Shown here: positions 2,718 to 20,682 of the stretch, piece after piece | Layout of the letters: the number at the start of each line of letters is the position of its first letter | Position numbering within the stretch: position 1 is the stretch's first letter | Virus record (IMG/VR): IMGVR_UViG_3300032046_000127 | Coordinates: 1-32,421 of that record | DNA from: a virus | Length of the DNA stretch: 32,421 bases | Direction: 5' to 3' (one strand) | The notes under the pieces: model-generated | Database searches by the model: none | What the model was told of the DNA's origin: nothing | What the model saw: only the letters and a program-made list of their open reading frames with translations | Made by a program: the position numbers and the translations under genes

Positions 2718-3550
2718 AGTACACCACCTTTTACGCTGGCGTTTGAAAAGAGATCATCATTGACCACGTTTTCTTTAACTTTTTCAGCTTTCTGAAAACC
2801 TGTGCTATTTCCGCGGCCGTCTTGAACTTCAATTGCCGGCTCCAGTTCTCTCAATTCATCCGGGTTGTGAACGCCTGCAAAAACAGCCGGGAAAGATGAT
2901 CTGCACGCTTTGCTATCCGAGCGATGTTTGAGCATGTTTTCCGTGTCTGAAATCCACTGAGGAAATGTACCAAAACGGTCGATTGACATTTCCACAGTGT
3001 GATATCTTTCAAAAACCTTTTCTTTACCATTTGGCATTTTTCTTGTTATCCTAGTAATACTTTTCAGGTTTTTAACCTTGATCTTTTTCCAGTTAGGACC
3101 GTCACCCTTTTTTGATGTGTTTACATCCGCTTCGACGAAAGTACCAAGGTCTACAATTTCTTGATCATAGTCCAAAAATTCAGGCTGTACCATTACGCAC
3201 CCAAGCATGCAGTCAGCGCTTGTAGATGGGCGGCCGCCCACTATGTAGATGTTGTGAAAACATGACATCGGATTATTTATCCCTATCATTTCTCCGAAAG
3301 ATAAAGCAATAAAACAGTTTTCCGGCTTTCCTTTGTAGACTTCCGGCACCATACTGCTTTTCGCAAATTGATCAGCTAAGGCCATTTTCCCAGATAAGCT
3401 TTTCGGCACTTTACCAGTGTCTTCCAGATCTCTTAACGCTGCTATATTTTGCTGCAAAGAAAGTTCTTTTCGCATTAACAGCAACCTCTTTTCTTCCTGT
3501 TCTAGATTTTGCAGTGCAATTTCTTGCACTACTGTTTTTTCTTCACACAT
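2714..3550 (-). CDS. RecT-like single-strand annealing protein
   Basis: 278 residues, the usual length for RecT. The coiled N-terminus is followed by the RecT core: LADQFAKSSMVPEVYKGKPENCF, then a run around GGRPSTSADCMLGC, and the conserved region MLKHRSDSKACRSSFPAVF near residues 207-225. The last 40 residues are low-complexity and probably bind a partner. It would anneal strands exposed by the RecE-like nuclease encoded next to it with a 4-bp overlap. The ribosome binding site is AGAGGT. The first codons lie in a duplicated palindromic element (3513-3530). Confidence 0.82.
   Translation of the reverse strand: MCEEKTVVQEIALQNLEQEEKRLLLMRKELSLQQNIAALRDLEDTGKVPKSLSGKMALADQFAKSSMVPEVYKGKPENCFIALSFGEMIGINNPMSCFHNIYIVGGRPSTSADCMLGCVMVQPEFLDYDQEIVDLGTFVEADVNTSKKGDGPNWKKIKVKNLKSITRITRKMPNGKEKVFERYHTVEMSIDRFGTFPQWISDTENMLKHRSDSKACRSSFPAVFAGVHNPDELRELEPAIEVQDGRGNSTGFQKAEKVKENVVNDDLFSNASVKGGVL
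3513..3530. promoter_or_regulatory. Palindromic element, copy 1 (GTGCA-N6-TGCAC)
   Basis: AGTGCAATTTCTTGCACT is an imperfect palindrome with arms GTGCA/TGCAC spaced by 6 bp. It sits inside the first codons of the RecT-like gene. The same arms and spacing recur at 3573-3590 and 8759-8774. It may be an operator of a phage repressor; here it would block elongation or act together with copy 2. Confidence 0.45.
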
Positions 3551-3607
3551 TTAAGACCTCTTTAAAGTATGCAGTGCAAAATTTTGCACTATTATTTTTT
3601 TACACAT
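3551..3607 (-). CDS. 18-residue micro-ORF upstream of recT (duplicated gene start)
   Basis: Encodes MCKKIIVQNFALHTLKRS and stops directly before the recT ATG. Its start overlaps the end of the upstream 111-residue gene. Its DNA is a diverged copy of the recT start (MCEEKTVVQEIALQ), including the palindrome, so it arose by a tandem duplication of about 60 bp. It may be only a remnant, or a leader peptide coupling recT translation to the gene upstream. AGAGGT near its 3' end serves as the recT ribosome binding site. Confidence 0.4.
   Translation of the reverse strand: MCKKIIVQNFALHTLKRS
3573..3590. promoter_or_regulatory. Perfect 18-bp palindrome, copy 2 (GTGCA-N6-TGCAC)
   Basis: AGTGCAAAATTTTGCACT is its own reverse complement. 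It lies 60 bp from copy 1 and just upstream of the RecT-like gene. A related site with the same arms and 6-bp spacing stands 72 bp upstream of the -35 of the promoter at 8846. This fits a dimeric repressor operator; an RNA hairpin is the alternative. Confidence 0.55.
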
Positions 3608-3935
3608 TTTTATGCTCCTTACAAATAATTCGGGTCACTCCTACAATTTGACCTTTCTCGTTTCTTATTGCCGTTTCACCCGTATCCGGTGCTATTACGT
3701 CAATTCTTTTATCATCGACAGCACTAAAGGCCATGCCTGAGACAACCAAAAAAACCCCCGGTTTTGGTTCAGGTAGTCCGACAACTGACACCCGAAACTG
3801 AGCAATTGCCGGAAAACCGGCATATTCACCCATATCAACTGTTAGCATTTCCACTCGGGGAATTATCCCGCATGGTTCAAAAGTTTTTCCGCACACTGTC
3901 AGTGCGTGAGGTGTGCAATTTAAGATTTCAATCAT
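3600..3935 (-). CDS. Conserved phage-type small protein, unknown function
   Basis: 111 residues. The opening ILNCTPHALTV, a central LPEPKPGVFLVVSGM and a terminal NEKGQIVGVTRI resemble a family of small phage and actinobacterial proteins that start with an LTPH motif and carry a PxPG turn. I do not know a function for that family. The ribosome binding site is a strong AAAGGAG, and the ATG overlaps the TGA of the 42-residue membrane protein upstream. It belongs to the leftward recombination operon. Confidence 0.65.
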   Translation of the reverse strand: MIEILNCTPHALTVCGKTFEPCGIIPRVEMLTVDMGEYAGFPAIAQFRVSVVGLPEPKPGVFLVVSGMAFSAVDDKRIDVIAPDTGETAIRNEKGQIVGVTRIICKEHKNV

Positions 3936-4060
3936 TTTTTTCTCCTTTTTTTTGCAGATATAAAATTTTCTGCATTTGTTTTTTCAGTGCGATATAAAAA
4001 ATAACCTATGGACAGATAAGCCACAGCCAAGATTGAACCTGCTATAATATCTAATATCAT
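3932..4060 (-). CDS. 42-residue single-pass membrane micro-protein
   Basis: Starts MILDIIAGSILAVAYLSIGY and ends in a basic tail SAKKRRKK. One transmembrane segment (residues about 4-23) is followed by a positive stretch, so the C-terminus should face the cytoplasm. Start and stop each overlap a neighbour by ATGA, which is strong support that it is translated. Function unknown. Confidence 0.6.
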   Translation of the reverse strand: MILDIIAGSILAVAYLSIGYFLYRTEKTNAENFISAKKRRKK

Positions 4061-4140
4061 TGCCAGTCACCGTATAGCAACCCGAGTATAAAAAACCCAG
4101 CCGCCAGCAAACTGGCTATGTCTACAAGATCGAAAATCAT
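4057..4140 (-). CDS. 27-residue membrane micro-protein, first gene of leftward operon
   Basis: MIFDLVDIASLLAAGFFILG followed by LLYGDWQ. It is almost entirely one hydrophobic helix. An AAGGAAA site lies 6-7 bases upstream of its ATG and its TGA overlaps the next ATG. It heads the operon that carries recE and recT. With its partner it forms a pair of tiny membrane proteins; holin-like, toxin-like and anti-defence roles are all possible. Confidence 0.5.
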   Translation of the reverse strand: MIFDLVDIASLLAAGFFILGLLYGDWQ

Positions 4141-4165
4141 CTAGTTTCCTTAAAAAAGTTACTTT

Positions 4166-4194
4166 ATGCTATATCAAAACAAGGTATATTGCAA
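4166..4194 (-). promoter_or_regulatory. Possible promoter of the leftward recombination operon
   Basis: On the minus strand TTGCAA (4189-4194) is followed 17 bp later by TAGCAT (4166-4171), with TATAGC two bases away as an alternative. The match is weak. It lies 26 bp upstream of the first micro-gene, where a promoter is needed. Several TTGCAA/TGCAA words nearby (around 4189, 4211, 4230 and 4255) could be regulator sites. Confidence 0.3.
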
Positions 4195-4266
4195 TATTAT
4201 TTTTAACATTTTGCAAATAGTCAGCAATCTGCAAGCAATACACGTTGATATCATTGCAAAATATAT

Positions 4267-4294
4267 TTGACAATTTTTTAAAATTGACTATGTT
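4267..4294 (+). promoter_or_regulatory. Sigma-70-type promoter of the secreted repeat protein
   Basis: TTGACA (4267-4272), a 16-bp spacer, then TATGTT (4289-4294). It stands about 60 bp upstream of the start codon at 4355. The same -10 hexamer is used by the replication-region promoter at 8846-8874. An own promoter suggests that this gene is expressed independently of the phage late operon. Confidence 0.6.
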
Positions 4295-4354
4295 TATCAA
4301 AACGATTGTTAGCCTTATCAAGATGGTAAGGCGATGAAAAAAAAAGGAGATCAG

Positions 4355-6190
4355 ATGAGAAAAACAGTTATTTTTTTTGTTTTATTGGGACTTTTGCCGG
4401 GATTTATGACAGGGCAGGGAAGAAAAGAGGTCAAACTTGAGATCTTTACGGCAAGATTTCAATCAGAAAGCTTTGAATCGTGTATTAGAGCTATTTTAGG
4501 TAAGGATCCAGGGTCGATTAAATTATCAGAGATTGCCAGAATTAAAGAGTTTTCGTGTTCTGAGGACGTTTCTTTGAACGATTTAAAACTCCTATTCGAT
4601 GGCACCAAGGTTTTTATCGGCAAAGATGGGGATACTTTCCAGATTTCTGGAAAAATCTTAAGCGGTGCTTTTGTCCCGGGCATTTTTGACGGTGATAATT
4701 TCAAAGCAGGTATTTTTAAAGACGGAAAGTTTGTTTATGGTATCGACTGGGCAGGCAATTTCATGGAAGGCGTTTTCGTCGGAGAAACATTTTTCCCGGG
4801 CATTCAGTGGGCTGGTCGTTTTGTTCCGGGACTTTACCGTGATGGCGCTTTTATCCCGGGCATTGTTGTCAATGCTAAGTTAGTTCCGGGGCTTGTAATT
4901 CAAGACAAATTTGTTCCGGGAACTTTTATCACAAAAAACAATTTTATCCCGGGAGTTTTTAAGGCAAATGGATTTGTTCCCGGAGTTTTTTATGACGGCA
5001 CATTCATTGGAGGCGTTTTTGAAAATGGAGTTTTTATTGACGGAACATCCGACGCATTAGGCGACGGTTTAACGTCTGAGGGTATTTTGAATTTAGATCA
5101 AAGGCAACAGATGGGCGGATTGATTGAAAAAGATTATACATCTGAGAAATTAGGTGGGCATTACATCCCGGGAATCGGTCAGGTCGGGGGAATCAGTGAC
5201 GGCAAAGGATCTAACGGCCGAGGAAATGACGGCATGGGATATGTGCCGGGCATCGGGAATGTACCAACGGGTGAAATTGGCAACGGAAATGTTGATCATG
5301 GAAACGGCAATGGGTCAGTTGGATATACGGGAGGCAGTATTGGAGGCAATGATGGTTATTATAATGGCGGTGGTTATGTCGGGACAGCGAGACCGGACAG
5401 AGAAGATTCAGGTGGAATTGGTTTACCACCGGGCACAGCGGGCGAATACGACCCGGCAACAGGTAAATTTATGCCAAATATTCACGGAAATTATGCCGGG
5501 CGAGTAGGGGCAAAAGGCGATAAAAGCACATCAAAGGGGAGCTCTACAACAAATAACAAAGACGGGGGAAAGACTGAGGTTAAAACAAGTTCAGAGACTG
5601 TTGACAACGGAGACGGCACATCCACAACGAAAACAAAAACCGACACTACAACCACTGACAAAAGCGGGAAAGTAGTTTCGTCCTCAACAAATGAGACTAC
5701 AAAAACAGAGAAAAACGGGAATGCTCCAGATAGCAAGCAATGTGGAATGAAAGACCCGAACGCTGCGTTTAATGTCGGGAACAACGCTTGGGGCGCGATA
5801 GCCGGATGTGCAGTTCTCGGGGCAGTGTTTTCTATTTTAGGCCCGATTGCTGGATATGGTGGGTGTGCTGTTGGGTCTGTATATGGTTCCAACTACTGGA
5901 AAGGTTGCGGAAACTATCCGGCCGATCCATGGTATAACGCACCGGGAATACCTGAGGCAATCACAAGCGATTTCTACCCAGCTGATGTTGATGGGCCGGG
6001 TGGAGATGTTTTCCTTGATTTGATCGCATATCCAGCCGACATTGATGGGCCGGGCGGAGATGTTTTCCTTGATCTTAATGGTTACCCGTCTGATGTAGAT
6101 GGTAGAGGCGGCGACGTATTTTTAAAAATTGACGCGGCACCTTCAACATTGTTAAATAGTGGAGTTTTATTAATTCCGGCCATGAGGTAA
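4355..6190 (+). CDS. Secreted or surface repeat protein, 611-612 residues, unknown function
   Basis: I choose ATG 4355: AAAGGAG stands 6-7 bases upstream and the protein then opens with a classic signal peptide (MRKTVIFFVLLGLLPGF); ATG 4334 would add seven residues and has a poorer site. Residues about 106-230 are twelve tandem repeats of ten residues with consensus F-V/I-P-G-V/I-x-x-x-G-x (one unit has eleven), likely a beta-solenoid or hairpin array. A Gly/Asn-rich stretch (about 250-385) and a Thr/Ser/Lys-rich stretch (about 390-465) follow, then a cysteine-containing glycine-zipper hydrophobic segment, then three 18-residue repeats YPADVDGPGGDVFLDL whose DxDGxGGD cores could bind calcium. 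It looks like cargo altering the host surface, or a secreted matrix or adhesin. No family recognised. Confidence 0.75.
   Translation: MRKTVIFFVLLGLLPGFMTGQGRKEVKLEIFTARFQSESFESCIRAILGKDPGSIKLSEIARIKEFSCSEDVSLNDLKLLFDGTKVFIGKDGDTFQISGKILSGAFVPGIFDGDNFKAGIFKDGKFVYGIDWAGNFMEGVFVGETFFPGIQWAGRFVPGLYRDGAFIPGIVVNAKLVPGLVIQDKFVPGTFITKNNFIPGVFKANGFVPGVFYDGTFIGGVFENGVFIDGTSDALGDGLTSEGILNLDQRQQMGGLIEKDYTSEKLGGHYIPGIGQVGGISDGKGSNGRGNDGMGYVPGIGNVPTGEIGNGNVDHGNGNGSVGYTGGSIGGNDGYYNGGGYVGTARPDREDSGGIGLPPGTAGEYDPATGKFMPNIHGNYAGRVGAKGDKSTSKGSSTTNNKDGGKTEVKTSSETVDNGDGTSTTKTKTDTTTTDKSGKVVSSSTNETTKTEKNGNAPDSKQCGMKDPNAAFNVGNNAWGAIAGCAVLGAVFSILGPIAGYGGCAVGSVYGSNYWKGCGNYPADPWYNAPGIPEAITSDFYPADVDGPGGDVFLDLIAYPADIDGPGGDVFLDLNGYPSDVDGRGGDVFLKIDAAPSTLLNSGVLLIPAMR
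4670..5044 (+). repeat. Twelve 30-bp coding repeats
   Basis: Within the secreted protein gene, 30-bp units encode FxPGxxxxGx. The word CCCGGG or CCGGG recurs in many units. Units are diverged in codons but kept in residues, which indicates selection on the protein rather than a recent expansion. Confidence 0.75.
5975..6136 (+). repeat. Three 54-bp coding repeats
   Basis: Three 18-residue units, each beginning YPxD and carrying DGxGGDVFL. Units 1 and 2 are nearly identical in DNA, so they duplicated more recently than the ten-residue repeats upstream. Confidence 0.75.
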
Positions 6191-12867: not shown

Positions 12868-13049
12868 CCAATAACCAAAACAAAAAATCGTGTATAAATT
12901 GCGATTTAAGAAAGCCGAACACGACGGCTTTAAAATATGTTTTTAAAAAACCCAAGTTTCGATGTGATGGGTACGCACAACCGAGGTTTAATAACCGGTA
13001 TAATTGCCCGAAATGGAAACCTATATCAAATGCGGAGACAGAAAATTGA
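12864..13049 (+). CDS. Small cysteine-rich (zinc-binding-like) protein
   Basis: 61 residues from ATG 12864, which overlaps the preceding TGA. Four cysteines (CINC, then single Cys near residues 34 and 48) with many Lys, Arg and Asn suggest a zinc-stabilised nucleic-acid-binding protein. Its TGA overlaps the preferred TTG start of the ParB-like gene. Confidence 0.5.
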   Translation: MTNNQNKKSCINCDLRKPNTTALKYVFKKPKFRCDGYAQPRFNNRYNCPKWKPISNAETEN

Positions 13050-13846
13050 AGATAGATTTAATTAATATTGAGGAAATTAAACCTTACAGGAACAATGCGA
13101 AATTGCATCCTGAAAAGCAAGTTGATCAAATCGCAGTATCAATCAAGGAATTTGGTTTTAATGTTCCAATCTTAATTGACGAAAATAACGTTATTATTGC
13201 AGGTCATGGGCGCTACTACGCTGCGCAAAAGCTGAACATGGACACAATACCAGCAATAAAGCTTGAACACCTTACAGAGGCTAGAAAGCGGGCTTTTATC
13301 ATTGCTGATAATAAGCTTAATATGAATACGGCTTTCGATATCAATATTCTTAAAGCCGAGCTCGAAGAAATACAAAAAAAATTTGAAGAAACAGGAGAAA
13401 ATTTTAATTGCTACAGCTTAGGATTCGATGAAGCGGAATTCCGAGATTTAATAAATCAATGCAGTCCAGATATTTATGAAAATGATGAGAATAATGCATA
13501 TACAAAAAAAATCAAAGCGCCTATTTACGAGCCAATTAATGAAAAACCGCCAATTGAAGAATTGTTTTCCTCAGAGAAAACAGAAGAGCTAATTGATAAA
13601 ATTAAAAAATCAAACATTCCGAAAGAAACGAAAACTTTTTTAATCAATGCCGCTTATAGGCATATAGTTTTTAACTATGCTAAGATAGCTGATTTTTACG
13701 CACATAGCGACAAGGAGACGCAACAATTAATGGAAGAGTCAGCACTCGTTATAATTGATTTTGATAAAGCTATTGAAAATGGTTTTGTGGAATTAAGCCA
13801 GGATATCTATAATCAATATCTCGAAGAATATCCAGATGAAGAGTGA
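13046..13846 (+). CDS. ParB/sulfiredoxin-like domain protein
   Basis: 266 residues from TTG 13046, chosen because GGAG lies 8 bases upstream and the TTG overlaps the preceding TGA as in two other genes here; ATG 13013 and TTG 13004 in the same frame lack a clear site. The N-terminus is a ParB-like domain: IEEIKPYRNNAKLHPEKQVDQIAVSIKEFG, then the signature IIAGHGRYYAAQKL and LTEARKRAFIIADNKL. In many phages this domain is fused to a DNA methyltransferase; here the methylase is missing and a helical acidic C-terminus follows. The next gene is a glycosyltransferase, so a guiding or accessory role in DNA modification is likely. Confidence 0.75.
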   Translation: MKIDLINIEEIKPYRNNAKLHPEKQVDQIAVSIKEFGFNVPILIDENNVIIAGHGRYYAAQKLNMDTIPAIKLEHLTEARKRAFIIADNKLNMNTAFDINILKAELEEIQKKFEETGENFNCYSLGFDEAEFRDLINQCSPDIYENDENNAYTKKIKAPIYEPINEKPPIEELFSSEKTEELIDKIKKSNIPKETKTFLINAAYRHIVFNYAKIADFYAHSDKETQQLMEESALVIIDFDKAIENGFVELSQDIYNQYLEEYPDEE

Positions 13847-14699
13847 AATTGTAATTTTTATTTTGACGCATGGCCGGCCGGATAACGTTATAACTTATAA
13901 CACTTTAAAGAAAATGAACTATAAGGAAGATATTTATATAATTATAGATAACGAAGATAAAACAGCAGAAAAATATTATGAAAATTTCGGCGATAAGGTT
14001 GTGATGTTTAACAAGGAAAAAATTGCTAAAACTTTCGATACAGCGGACAATTTTAAAGAACGACGGACTATAGTTTTTGCGAGGAATGCGTGTTTTGAAA
14101 TAGCTGAAAAATTAGGTTATAAATATTTTATCGAATTCGATGACGATTATGAAGAGTTTTATTTTTCATTTAAAAAAAACATGGAATACAACAGCGCGCA
14201 TAAAAGAATTAAAGATTTTTATAGGACACTTCAATTATTTTTGAAATGCTTCAAAAGCATGCCGATTAAAAGTTTAGCGTTTAGTCAGGGCGGCGATTTT
14301 ATAGGCGGATCGAATAGCACGGCATGGGAAAAACTGATTTTAAGAAAATGTATGAATTCTTTTATATGCTCAATTGATCGGCCATTTAAATTTGTAGGTA
14401 AAATTAATGAAGATGTTAACACGTATGCGGGGCATGCTAAAACGGGTGATTTGTTTTTCACGTCTGCATTGATTCGATTGAAGCAAAAAGCAACACAATC
14501 AAATCAGGGCGGAATGACTGATGTGTATTTAGACAAGGGAACGTATATTAAAAGTTTTTACACGATCATATTCGCGCCCAGTTGTTGTAAAATAGGATTA
14601 ATGGGAGTTGCGCAAATGAGATTGCACCACAAAATAAGATGGAATAACGCGGTTCCGGTAATAATAGATGAAAAATACAGAAAGTCGCAAAACGGTTGA
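13836..14699 (+). CDS. TET-associated glycosyltransferase-like (GREB1/TAGT type) protein
   Basis: 287 residues. It shows the features of the GT-A type TAGT family: the opening strand and HGRP (IFILTHGRPDN, 6-17), a second strand YIIIDNEDKTAEKY (34-48), the DN...VFARNACFEIAEKLGYKYFIEFDDDY block (71-105) with the D102-D104 metal-binding triad, a GGxxIGGSN loop (about 151-158) and NEDV plus a FFTSALI segment. Known members are linked to phage DNA base hypermodification, where they put sugars on hydroxylated bases. Here it overlaps the ParB-like gene by 11 bp and lies just before terminase. No hydroxylase or hydroxymethylase is in the window, so the acceptor base is unknown. Confidence 0.75.
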   Translation: MKSEIVIFILTHGRPDNVITYNTLKKMNYKEDIYIIIDNEDKTAEKYYENFGDKVVMFNKEKIAKTFDTADNFKERRTIVFARNACFEIAEKLGYKYFIEFDDDYEEFYFSFKKNMEYNSAHKRIKDFYRTLQLFLKCFKSMPIKSLAFSQGGDFIGGSNSTAWEKLILRKCMNSFICSIDRPFKFVGKINEDVNTYAGHAKTGDLFFTSALIRLKQKATQSNQGGMTDVYLDKGTYIKSFYTIIFAPSCCKIGLMGVAQMRLHHKIRWNNAVPVIIDEKYRKSQNG

Positions 14700-14720: not shown

Positions 14721-15275
14721 ATGAGTAAAGAACCCAAAGAAAAAGGCCAGACCGGACGAAGACGTTTTTCTCCACAGAAAACCATACTCGATAAAATCTT
14801 TCAGCTTGCACAAAGGGGGTGCACAAATGAGGAAATATTTAAGGCCGTCGGGATGGCGAAAGACCTGTTTTACCGGGAAATGAAAAAAAAAGGCGCCTTG
14901 TATGAATCGGTAATAAAAGGCCGGGACAGGTCAATCGAAGAAGTTGAAAATGCTCTGTTCAAAATCGCTGTCGGTTTTGATCAAGAGGAACTGACAACAA
15001 TTATCAAGGATGTTGATGGAAAACAGACAAAAGAAGTGAAGAAAGTCAAAAAACACTTTCCGCCTTCAGCGGCTGCAATCTGTTTTATACTCAAAAACAG
15101 GTGCAACGATAAATGGAATGACAGAAGAGACATCGAACACAGCGGCAATATAGATCTCAGCCACACAGCAACACAGATCATTTTTCAGGATATCAAAAAA
15201 GCCGTCGACAAAATAGTCGAAGAGGAAGAACTTGATGCGCTCGATATGGCCGAAATCAAAGAAAACGATGAATGA
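14721..15275 (+). CDS. Terminase small subunit
   Basis: 184 residues. An N-terminal helix-turn-helix (LAQRGCTNEEIFKAVGMAKDLFYREM, about 30-55) recognises the packaging site; the middle has the typical ALFKIAVGF and the C-terminal PPSAAAICFILKNRCNDKWNDR pattern of phage small terminases. The acidic tail likely contacts the large subunit. It overlaps the large-subunit gene by ATGA. AAAAGGGG precedes its ATG. Confidence 0.82.
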   Translation: MSKEPKEKGQTGRRRFSPQKTILDKIFQLAQRGCTNEEIFKAVGMAKDLFYREMKKKGALYESVIKGRDRSIEEVENALFKIAVGFDQEELTTIIKDVDGKQTKEVKKVKKHFPPSAAAICFILKNRCNDKWNDRRDIEHSGNIDLSHTATQIIFQDIKKAVDKIVEEEELDALDMAEIKENDE

Positions 15276-16543
15276 ACAAAACTGTCAAAATAGAGACTCT
15301 AAGTTATCAAACTAAATTCGCTGACAAAGCATTAAATGACCCAACAGTTAAATATTTAGGTTTTATTGCAGGTACCGGCACGGGTAAAACCTATTTGCTG
15401 CCACGCCTTCTTTACGCAATGATGAACAAATATAAAGGGGAAGAATGGATTGTTTCAGCGCCTTCTATCCAGATGCTTAAAAACAACCCAATTGCCTACA
15501 CAGCTAGGTTTTTTCATTCCATTGATCTTGATTTTTATGATTGTTTTCACAAATCCGATAAAGTTTACGAATCTGCACTTGGCAAGGTTCATTTTATTTC
15601 GGCTGAAACTCCTGATAGAATGCAGGGTATTCACGCTAAAGGAATATTTGGAGATGAGGCAGGGCTTTTTAAAATCCTGTGGTGGTTGACGGCTGTTCAG
15701 AGAGTATCATTTAAAAAAGGAAAGATTTTACTTTTCACAACGCCATATAACTTAAACTGGCTTAAAACTGAGGTTTACGATAAGTTTTTACAGAGAGACC
15801 CTAATTTTTACATCATCAATCCCAGATCAATTGACAACCCCTTTTATCCGATTGAGGAGTATTATAATGCTCAGAAGCGATTGCCTGAATGGAAATTTAA
15901 AATGCTTTATGAGGCAAAGTTTTCAAAACCTTATGGTCTGATTTATCCTGAATATAAAACTTGCAGACCTTTTGAAATACCGGCAAACTGGCCTAGATAC
16001 GGGGGCGCAGACCATGGATATAATGACCCCTTTACTGTTATCAAAGTTGCGCATGATCTCGATAACGATCAATATTATGCGTATGAGGAGTTTTACAAAA
16101 CGGGCATGATGCCGGATGAGATGGTTGATATTTTGCAGGCTGAAGACATTCCATACTATATTGACCCGGAAAATAAGACACTTAACGAGTATTTCAAAAG
16201 AAAATCAATCAATGTCCGAATACCGGACAAGTCTGTCATGGCTGGGCTTATTGCAACAAATGCGATTTTAAAAACGGGTAAACTTATTATTTTTGATAAT
16301 CTCATAAATACCATTGACGAAATGAACAGCTATCAATACGCAATCGATAAGAATGAAAATCTGATAGATAAACCTCAAGATGGACATGATCACCTGATGG
16401 ATGCGCTCAGGTACGTTGTGAATACGGCAATTACTCTCAAGGACAACAGCAAAGGAGTCGCTAAAGGTTCGGGAGATTTAGATCATAGAGAAATTGATAT
16501 TTATCAAGGCGTTAACGATGATCCTTTGAAAGGTTTTATGTAA
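15272..16543 (+). CDS. Terminase large subunit (packaging ATPase/nuclease)
   Basis: 423 residues. Walker A AGTGTGKT (33-40), Walker B IFGDEAG with D128 and E129, the coupling segment LLFTTP (153-158) and the nuclease domain with D247 in GGADHGYNDP and a late DGHDHLMDALRY cluster near 385. It pumps DNA into the prohead and cuts it. Complete, of normal length. A palindromic intergenic region follows. Confidence 0.92.
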   Translation: MNKTVKIETLSYQTKFADKALNDPTVKYLGFIAGTGTGKTYLLPRLLYAMMNKYKGEEWIVSAPSIQMLKNNPIAYTARFFHSIDLDFYDCFHKSDKVYESALGKVHFISAETPDRMQGIHAKGIFGDEAGLFKILWWLTAVQRVSFKKGKILLFTTPYNLNWLKTEVYDKFLQRDPNFYIINPRSIDNPFYPIEEYYNAQKRLPEWKFKMLYEAKFSKPYGLIYPEYKTCRPFEIPANWPRYGGADHGYNDPFTVIKVAHDLDNDQYYAYEEFYKTGMMPDEMVDILQAEDIPYYIDPENKTLNEYFKRKSINVRIPDKSVMAGLIATNAILKTGKLIIFDNLINTIDEMNSYQYAIDKNENLIDKPQDGHDHLMDALRYVVNTAITLKDNSKGVAKGSGDLDHREIDIYQGVNDDPLKGFM

Positions 16544-18319: not shown

Positions 18320-19663
18320 ATGTTTGAACGTTTCAGAAAAATATTCAATGCCGGCCTTGAAGAAAAGATCACGCCACCTAACGCCGTTGAACCCATGCCG
18401 AATGTTGAGACTCTATCAAGTAGATTTCTCTCAATGATGGAAAACACGAGCCTTGACTTGTTACCAACGGGTACGGATCTCGAAGATTTTATCCTTGAAA
18501 TGGAAAAAGACCCGGATATTGAAACAGAACTTAAAAACTTTAAATCATTCGTTACGCAAGGTCGAATTAACTTTGTCCCGGCTAATGAAAAACCTGACTC
18601 AATTAATGCGGCTGAGATATGTAACAGTGTTTTAAATCCAACAGTTATCAAGGATTTTTATAATAAAGCGCTTCATTGTATGGATCAGGGATTTTCGGTC
18701 ATTTGGGCAAAATTTAAAAACAGTGATGGGATTTTTGCAATAGATAGTTTTTCAGAACCTAAGTTTTCGTATTTTGATTTTAATCAGGCCGGAACTTTGA
18801 TGAATGCGACCTCACAAGAGGAGCTTAAACAACCTAATTGGATGGTGACGACATATAATGAGCGTTACGGTGACAAACACGGCCGCTCTGTATTTCTTAC
18901 TTTATACTGGATTGCAAAATTTGAGAAACTTGGATATAAGCAGATCGTCACACTGTTTGATAAGCTGGGAGTTCCTTCTTTTGCGGCACTTATCGCACCC
19001 AGTGGAGACGATGGAATTGACCAAAAAAGAGCAAATGCAATTGCAACGGCAATTAAAAATATTAGATCACATTCGGGTATCGCATTGACTGCAACGGATA
19101 TTAAAAAACTTGAAGCAAGTTCCGGAGCAATCAAAGAAATAGATGATTTTTTGAGGCACCTGAAGGAATCAAAAACACGTGTTATCATGGGCGCTCTTCT
19201 CACATCCGGGACTACTGGAAGTTCCGGAACCTACAATCTCGCAGCAAATCACAAAGCAATCACCGAAATGCGAGTTAACGATACTGGCGAACTTATCGCC
19301 TCAACTATCTCAAATCAGCTGATACCGCTCATTTGCCAGCTCAATATTAATGCGTATTTTCAAGCCGCTGATATGCCAAAAGCTATATATTCACTACCTG
19401 TTTTTTCAAATCTTGATGATTTCTTAAAAATTGTAGATAGGTTCGAGAATATCGAAATTAAGGCGAGTACGATAAAATCAATTTATAAAATGCCAATTGA
19501 AAATCAGGACGATGAAACGATGGTAATTAAAAAACAGGTAGCGCCGGCTGGCCAGTTTTCCGAAGAAGACGCCGACTTTGATAATTTTTTTTTTCAGAAA
19601 ATGAATTACAAAAACAAAAGGATGCAAACACCAATTTCGGAAAAAACACGAACGATGCAATAG
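18320..19663 (+). CDS. Portal protein, Mu gp29-like (DUF935), 0-frame product
   Basis: 447 residues from ATG 18320 with GAGG 8 bases upstream; a TTG at 18293 in frame lies in the promoter. It has the DUF935 portal layout: DPDIETELKNFKSFV near 70-85, the FSVIWAKF and FDFNQAGTL region, ERYGDKHGRSVFLTLYWIAKFEKLGYKQIVTLFDKLGVP (about 190-230), then AIKNIRSHSGIAL and GALLTSGTTGSSGTYNLAANH. It forms the ring through which DNA enters the head. The 0 frame ends soon after a run of ten T, and the usual C-terminal helical region continues in the -1 frame, so this product looks truncated unless a frameshift joins it to the next gene. Confidence 0.85.
   Translation: MFERFRKIFNAGLEEKITPPNAVEPMPNVETLSSRFLSMMENTSLDLLPTGTDLEDFILEMEKDPDIETELKNFKSFVTQGRINFVPANEKPDSINAAEICNSVLNPTVIKDFYNKALHCMDQGFSVIWAKFKNSDGIFAIDSFSEPKFSYFDFNQAGTLMNATSQEELKQPNWMVTTYNERYGDKHGRSVFLTLYWIAKFEKLGYKQIVTLFDKLGVPSFAALIAPSGDDGIDQKRANAIATAIKNIRSHSGIALTATDIKKLEASSGAIKEIDDFLRHLKESKTRVIMGALLTSGTTGSSGTYNLAANHKAITEMRVNDTGELIASTISNQLIPLICQLNINAYFQAADMPKAIYSLPVFSNLDDFLKIVDRFENIEIKASTIKSIYKMPIENQDDETMVIKKQVAPAGQFSEEDADFDNFFFQKMNYKNKRMQTPISEKTRTMQ
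19585..19594 (+). other. T10 slippery run, predicted -1 frameshift joining portal and MuF
   Basis: Ten T in a row; the 0 frame reads AAT TTT TTT TTT CAG. Slipping back by one (T TTT TTT), or adding one T in transcription, moves translation into the frame that stays open through to 20682. The -1 frame after the run (SENELQKQKDANTNFGKNTN, then DAIDNLIQTSYDQFQAALLK) resembles the normal C-terminus of DUF935 portals. A sequencing error in the homopolymer would give the same picture. Confidence 0.6.
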
Positions 19664-19740
19664 ATAATCTGATTCAAACCTCATACGATCAATTTCAGGC
19701 AGCACTTTTAAAAGAGTTTAATCATTACCTTGATAATGAT

Positions 19741-20682
19741 TTGGAACCAACGGAACCCAGCAAAGAGTTTTTAAAAGAAGTCAGAGAATCTTTGCTTAAC
19801 ATTCATGCGATCTCTTTTCTGGCAGGTCAGTATTTTGTCAGACTGAAAACAGAAATAGATCAAACCACAGCAAAAAAGATTAAAAAAAGTAAAAAGTTCA
19901 ATGAGCCTATTTTCGATTTGAAGATTGAAGATATTGCCGCCTACAACGTTTTTCTTATGCAGTTTGCAAAGATACCGGATAAGAACAGTTTTATGAAAAT
20001 AAAGCCAATTACGGCGATTAAGTGGCTAAGTTCGAAGCTGATGAAAAAAACGTTTGAATATTTAAAGAAAATTGAGGATGCCGTTGGAGATAAAATTGAT
20101 ATTTCTGCAAAACTTGCATTTTACGACAACGCAAAACATCTTACGGAATTTATCACAAATTCTCTGGATAAAGGTGAAAGTCTCAAAAAGACAATTAAAA
20201 AGCTGGGAAAACAAGAGCTTTTGGATAAAATCGGAATTACCGATAATAACAAATACTATCTCGAAACTGTTGTCAGGACAAATCAGGTTACTGCTATGAG
20301 CGCCGGTGAGCGTGTTGAATCTCTCGCTAGCCCTTATGTTGATTTTTATGAATATAACGCAATTATCGATCCCCGGACTACAGATATTTGCTCATCGCTT
20401 AATGGAATTGTTATGAAAAAAGATGACTCTTTTTGGGATACGCATTTGCCGCCGAATCATTTTAACTGTAGATCGCGTGTTTTAACTTTGAGCAAAGATC
20501 TCGCAGACCTTTTGAAAATCAAAGAAACAGGCACTGAAGGCGCTAAAATGCCAGCTGAATCATTTGCCGTAGATCCATCCAAAACATGGAGTCTTCCGAC
20601 TAAAGACATGCGGCAGAGACTCGCTGATCATCTTGATGTCCCTTACAAAGAAATACCGAAAGGCGCTAAATTCAAAGAGTAA
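19741..20682 (+). CDS. MuF-like head morphogenesis protein, likely expressed as portal fusion
   Basis: The frame is open from 19585, but before 19741 has no ATG or GTG; TTG 19741 has no ribosome binding site, so a frameshift from the portal gene is more likely than independent initiation. Residues up to about 40 belong to the portal C-terminal helices (EFLKEVRESLLNIHAISFLAGQY). The rest is the Mu gpF/SPP1 gp7-type domain: VRTNQVTAMSAGERVE, then YNAIIDPRTTDICSSLNG and LPPNHFNCRSRV, the typical D-R-T-C and HFNCRS signatures. The full fusion from 18320 would be about 788 residues. It acts in the prohead near the portal. Confidence 0.8.
   Translation: MEPTEPSKEFLKEVRESLLNIHAISFLAGQYFVRLKTEIDQTTAKKIKKSKKFNEPIFDLKIEDIAAYNVFLMQFAKIPDKNSFMKIKPITAIKWLSSKLMKKTFEYLKKIEDAVGDKIDISAKLAFYDNAKHLTEFITNSLDKGESLKKTIKKLGKQELLDKIGITDNNKYYLETVVRTNQVTAMSAGERVESLASPYVDFYEYNAIIDPRTTDICSSLNGIVMKKDDSFWDTHLPPNHFNCRSRVLTLSKDLADLLKIKETGTEGAKMPAESFAVDPSKTWSLPTKDMRQRLADHLDVPYKEIPKGAKFKE

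Follow-up and report, generated by a model that had tools for sequence, protein, structure and literature searches.

The portal gene of an uncultivated virus ends shortly after a run of ten T, and the reading frame reached by a −1 shift at this run continues into a MuF domain. We consider it likely that the locus is a productive gene with two products, a short portal and a portal–MuF fusion, obtained through either transcriptional or ribosomal slippage. On balance, we think that the two products would arise from RNA polymerase slippage at the T10 run, although we hold this only a little more firmly than its opposite; expression of both is predicted from comparison of related loci. The original prediction that slippage joins portal and MuF gains support from this comparison, in which a pattern of runs shared by 17 contigs would be hard to obtain from sequencing error.

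The window, by which we mean the whole stretch of DNA analysed (32,421 nt, 38% GC), comes from IMG/VR virus record IMGVR_UViG_3300032046_000127. It has a myovirus-type head-gene order, with terminase, portal, MuF, a major-capsid-E-like gene, sheath and baseplate J (Table 1). Scans of the viral collection with single proteins (portal, −1 ORF, terminase) returned no close relatives.

Table 1. Features of the portal–MuF locus and of the upstream terminase gene in the window.
Feature	Position	Strand	Evidence and remarks
Terminase large subunit	15272..16543	+	Terminase_3C, E 2.2e-07; tblastn matches to many phage terminases; upstream of portal, same head-gene order
Portal gene (DUF935/Portal_Mu), short product	18320..19663	+	ORF of 447 aa, the last 22 of them beyond the run
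FSE motif (CAG TTT TCC GAA) and codons up to the run	19553..19584	+	Codon listing; matches the place of F[ASQ]E and run in relatives
T10, putative slippage site	19585..19594	+	Codons AAT TTT TTT TTT CAG; T TTT TTT in phase
−1 frame ORF	19585..20682	+	365 aa, open throughout; N-terminal part helical, probably the portal C-terminal region, followed by the MuF domain
Phage_Mu_F (MuF) domain	20137..20481	+	−1 ORF residues 185–299; PF04233, E 2.9e-20

The 0 frame runs from ATG 18320 to TAG 19661–19663, and its product is a member of the DUF935/Portal_Mu family, covering the profile nearly end to end (PF06074, residues 60–388, profile positions 6–333 of 336, E 1.9e-34). An AlphaFold2 model, built with 60 relatives in the alignment, had pLDDT above 90 across much of the portal core. 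Its top Foldseek matches were the portals of JBD30 (8rka, E 5.8e-17), P7-1, Mu (9khx) and G20c (4zjn), with E values from 5.8e-17 to 1.6e-11. As modelled, the short product is a complete portal fold. Missing from it is the helical tail that lies between the core and the MuF gene in DUF935 portals.

The position given for the T10 run in the original prediction, shortly before the portal stop, was exact, and the −1 frame does carry the whole MuF domain, scoring 73.5 bits against a curated cut-off of 29.6; this ORF also matches PHROG 220 (minor head protein and DNA pilot) at E 6.5e-28. Among the homopolymers of the window T10 ranks first in length, ahead of two A9. About 1.2 runs of T10 or longer are expected by chance in the window under a first-order model; because long runs are common at this GC content, T10 by itself proves nothing, and what makes it notable is where it lies and what the relatives show. 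A net gain of one base in the run joins the frames into a fusion of 787 residues, and a net loss of two into one of 786; the originally predicted length of about 788 residues was very slightly too high. The loss of a single base leads to a stop six residues downstream. The −1 frame had also been said to have no ATG, GTG or ribosome binding site of its own ahead of MuF, and up to ATG 19957 we found the same. Between the run and MuF, its start codons are TTG at 19741, 19792 and 19918; the first ATG, at 19957, stands six codons ahead of the domain match, no GTG precedes it, and none of these four codons has a Shine-Dalgarno sequence.

What the −1 frame encodes ahead of MuF is less sharply defined. 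A model of the −1 ORF, of moderate confidence, has three helices in residues 5–101; a fold search with it gave no matches. The region had been taken for the missing portal C-terminus, and its position makes this plausible. A profile of portal C-termini scored 2.6 bits against the −1 N-terminus of the window, which is not significant given shuffled controls of up to 3.4, and hhalign likewise gave no significant match; the profile did match two related loci (L124, 44.5 bits; L185, 34.7 bits). We retain, from position, the plausible assignment of the first ~100 residues to the portal C-terminal helical tail.

To place the run in context, we compared 309 loci (239 of them distinct) that encode both domains, taken from public phage records and viral contigs. 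The typical locus consists of two ordinary genes, a portal with its own C-terminus and a MuF gene that starts near the portal stop, and a scan of genome contigs yielded only such ordinary separate portal/MuF loci. Alignment of the portals of distant relatives contained no stretch conserved enough for scanning. The stretch from portal core to MuF held an A/T run of at least 9 in 18 loci: ten with portal and MuF in two frames, seven one-frame fusions and one with separate genes (L361). The ten two-frame loci are distinct contigs, the window included, and in all of them MuF lies in the −1 frame and an F[AS]E motif stands just before the run (window, T10; L052, L089 and L093/L094, A10; L061, L090, L092, L095, L185 and L287, A9). 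One of them, L287, was found solely through a DNA pattern for motif and run, with MuF not used. The window alone has a T run; all the other runs are of A, and A9 or A10 occurs at the homologous place in 16 other distinct joined loci, conservation of the kind expected of programmed transcriptional slippage.

The seven one-frame fusions with A9 or A10 (L124, L103, L121, L188, L179, L325 and L330) are mirror images of the window. Insertion or deletion of one base leads to a stop after 5–14 residues, that is, to a short portal, and the run lies at the F[ASQ]E motif in six of the seven (in L325 it is not directly behind the motif). One-frame relatives lacking a run had been named in advance as evidence against slippage. 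We found 15 such fusions (e.g., L009, L053, L059, L083, L084 and L177), so the run is not obligatory and not every such phage requires two products, but the ten two-frame and seven one-frame contigs do keep it.

Some loci were left out of these counts or fall beside them. Ordinary genes spaced slightly further apart are among the 61 loci of a loose two-frame class, of which we counted only the ten whose run reaches at least 9. L072 (MuF in +1), L210 (−1 with G7) and L125 were not counted, having no A/T slip site at the motif. In L072 (1490–3902), MuF with a long N-terminal extension lies in +1, with a short overlap with the portal and no homopolymer there; a +1 arrangement or a separate start is possible. 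L361, which sits in AT-rich sequence (run at ~3147), and L170 (Thermodesulfovibrio sp. N1, ~3791) have separate portal and MuF genes, and an A8 or A9 lies within the portal gene near the homologous region, in L170 directly behind TTT GCC GAA. This layout, in which a slip would truncate the portal, is possibly an intermediate state.

Long runs follow the joined layouts closely. Scoring the longest A/T run in the 81 nt after an F[ASQTV]E motif, with a few duplicate contigs among the loci, we found at least 9 bases in 10/11 two-frame loci, 6/16 fused loci and 0/93 separate-gene loci. The longest run was at most 5 in 91 of the 93 separate-gene loci and 7 and 8 in the other two; joined genes had runs of at most 5 or at least 9 and none in between. 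In run-bearing genes, which reach 68% GC, the site is mostly the sole A/T run of at least 7. A tree of portal core plus MuF implies six changes of run state, with runs in several lineages; the branch of the window is long (2.86) and its placement unsure.

Constraint on the −1 frame could be followed in a clade of seven two-frame loci (L052, L089, L090, L061, L092, L094 and L095), with portals 43–73% identical to that of L052. From the run to the portal stop, differences per −1-frame codon position were 0.39, 0.33 and 0.54; past the stop they were 0.49, 0.46 and 0.73. Third positions of the −1 frame coincide with second positions of the 0 frame, which means that it is not the 0-frame tail that is conserved. 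As differences peak at −1 third positions, the −1 frame is constrained, and hence translated, right from the run, upstream of any start codon.

The original prediction held that T TTT TTT would suit both ribosomal and transcriptional slippage, and it does: the heptamer is in phase and the run is long enough for RNA polymerase. Bacterial RNA polymerase is reported to slip on at least 7 T, a threshold that T10 passes, to need more A and to be biased towards T (PMC6260861). The comparison leans towards RNA polymerase because runs longer than 5 but shorter than 9 are missing from joined genes, the phase of the run and its last codon vary, the base changes from A to T, the downstream fold is not unusual and no consistent Shine-Dalgarno sequence lies upstream. 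On these grounds the comparative data favour RNA polymerase slippage over ribosomal frameshifting.

The same two products could instead come from a −1 shift of the ribosome on T TTT TTT (in relatives, on A AAA AAA or A AAA AAG), a reading that we regard as unlikely. It is consistent with the in-phase X XXX XXX heptamer inside every run, with a GAGG/AGGA-like sequence 5–16 nt upstream at a few sites, and with A AAA AAG in several A runs. A AAA AAG is a classic strong bacterial frameshift site. Seven bases would nonetheless be enough for a ribosomal slip, yet joined-gene runs are of 9–10 bases with none between 5 and 9, and the last codon differs among loci (AAG, AAA, AAC, ACT, AGC and ATC), as does run phase. 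No site shows a downstream stem-loop (fold z between −1.9 and 1.25), and no upstream Shine-Dalgarno is consistent among them; in the window, z is −0.16 and no Shine-Dalgarno-like sequence lies upstream, so that the usual, although not universal, stimulator is absent there. A published precedent is the portal–MuF pair of phage Emery, with T TTT TTA in phase, described as putative ribosomal slippage (PMC4168068).

An error of sequencing or assembly, in which the ten T stand for a true 11 (or 8) and portal and MuF are fused in one frame, appears quite improbable. The T count of the window is that of the IMG/VR record, ten-base homopolymers are error-prone and run-less one-frame fusions do occur (L009, L053, L059, L083 and L084). 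Against this, nine other contigs from different samples have the same layout with runs of 9–10 bases, among them the L052 clade, which kept it while its portals diverged to about 44% identity, and T11 would still be a slippage site like that of L124 or L330, with the default frame swapped. The matching A runs at the same spot in distant phages make the site in the window look like a working switch.

It is highly improbable that MuF is made separately, by re-initiation at TTG 19741, ATG 19957 or ATG 19996, with no fusion. Most relatives do encode MuF in a gene of its own that overlaps the end of the portal gene, and the two ATG codons are near the MuF gene starts of relatives; but none of the three codons has a Shine-Dalgarno, the TTG lies inside the helical region, an internal start leaves the run unexplained, and constraint on the −1 frame of the L052 clade sets in before any start codon. 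A broken or phase-variable copy, in which MuF of this individual lost its frame through a real replication slip in the DNA, is very hard to credit, since the neighbouring head and tail genes appear intact and the −1 layout is fixed across the L052 clade as a stable arrangement, even if long homopolymers do mutate in length and one-frame fusions with runs are known (the L124 class).

Under RNA polymerase slippage, the polymerase would sometimes add one U on T10 (or drop two). Unslipped mRNA would give the 447-residue portal, and slipped mRNA the fusion of 787 (or 786) residues, in which the portal is followed by the C-terminal helical region and MuF. Both products could enter one portal ring, so that only a fraction of the subunits would bear MuF, which would be brought to the head in few copies and by covalent means. 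In SPP1, the MuF-family protein gp7 enters the procapsid in few copies through portal binding, and virions form without it, but only about 25% are infectious (PMC6316719). The proposed device resembles SPP1 in supplying few MuF copies via the portal; there, however, portal (gp6) and MuF (gp7) are two separate genes and their association is non-covalent.

We further propose, tentatively and with a little less than even confidence, a recurrent head-building device: homopolymer slip sites would have been gained in several portal–MuF lineages, in either frame order (short portal or fusion as default), and polymerase slippage would set the MuF-bearing fraction of a mixed ring of two subunit types. 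If true, this would be a simple answer to how few MuF end up beside a twelve-fold portal, a question of head assembly, and it would predict a mixed portal ring. Gene callers would cut off or miss the MuF part of such genes, and a long run in a GC-rich phage head gene should not be taken for an error and "corrected".

Parts of this arrangement are already known. Portal and MuF share one polypeptide, as in the predicted fusion of the window, in Microbacterium phages of clusters EA and EB, where the parts of the paper available to us describe gene fusions and mention no portal/MuF slippage (PMC7302621). A predicted −1 frameshift is known from Brevibacillus phage Emery (KC595516, described as a Paenibacillus larvae phage), whose gp4/gp5 are annotated as a joined CDS with putative slippage and predicted products of 58.9 and 82.5 kDa (PMC4168068). 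Like the window, Emery has a portal-like protein (520 aa) in the 0 frame and MuF (PF04233, 3.8e-12) at the end of the −1 product, but its portal is T4-like (weak PF07230), not DUF935, and its heptamer is T TTT TTA, not a 9–10 base run. The authors treated gp4 as a head morphogenesis protein, not as portal plus MuF (PMC4168068); gp4 (3171–5350 of the record), annotated as SPP1 gp7-like, is better read as a T4-like portal, with MuF only in the frameshifted gp5.

In other genes (Shigella spa13, IS elements and lambda G/GT), slipping at a homopolymer or heptamer has been described as the source of a minor protein with a C-terminal extension, made in a useful ratio; in the sections of the review consulted (PMC5009743), portal proteins are not mentioned among genes with transcriptional slippage. 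A partial literature search found no report of slippage in DUF935 portals, which is weak evidence of absence. Portal–MuF fusions and the predicted frameshift from a T4-like portal to MuF in Emery are thus known, and the predicted slippage variant in DUF935 portals would be new.

Other genes of the window also deserve mention. A ParB-N-like gene followed by a TET-associated glycosyltransferase (TAGT) gene at 13004–14699 suggests hypermodified DNA bases in this phage, and the minus strand encodes a DUF3799 PDDEXK-like nuclease of 520 aa at 1155–2717. Among the contigs L254–L322, L257, L268, L271, L275 and about 20 more have a conserved GTTTTTTTTTAC (T9), on the reverse strand, at the overlap of two ORFs, one of ~220 aa and the other, in another frame, with YGWLYN..EFE.ISINEVWDL..FLNDLSYLKMK. 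This overlap looks like a frameshift gene of the tail-assembly-chaperone type, likewise at a nine-base run.
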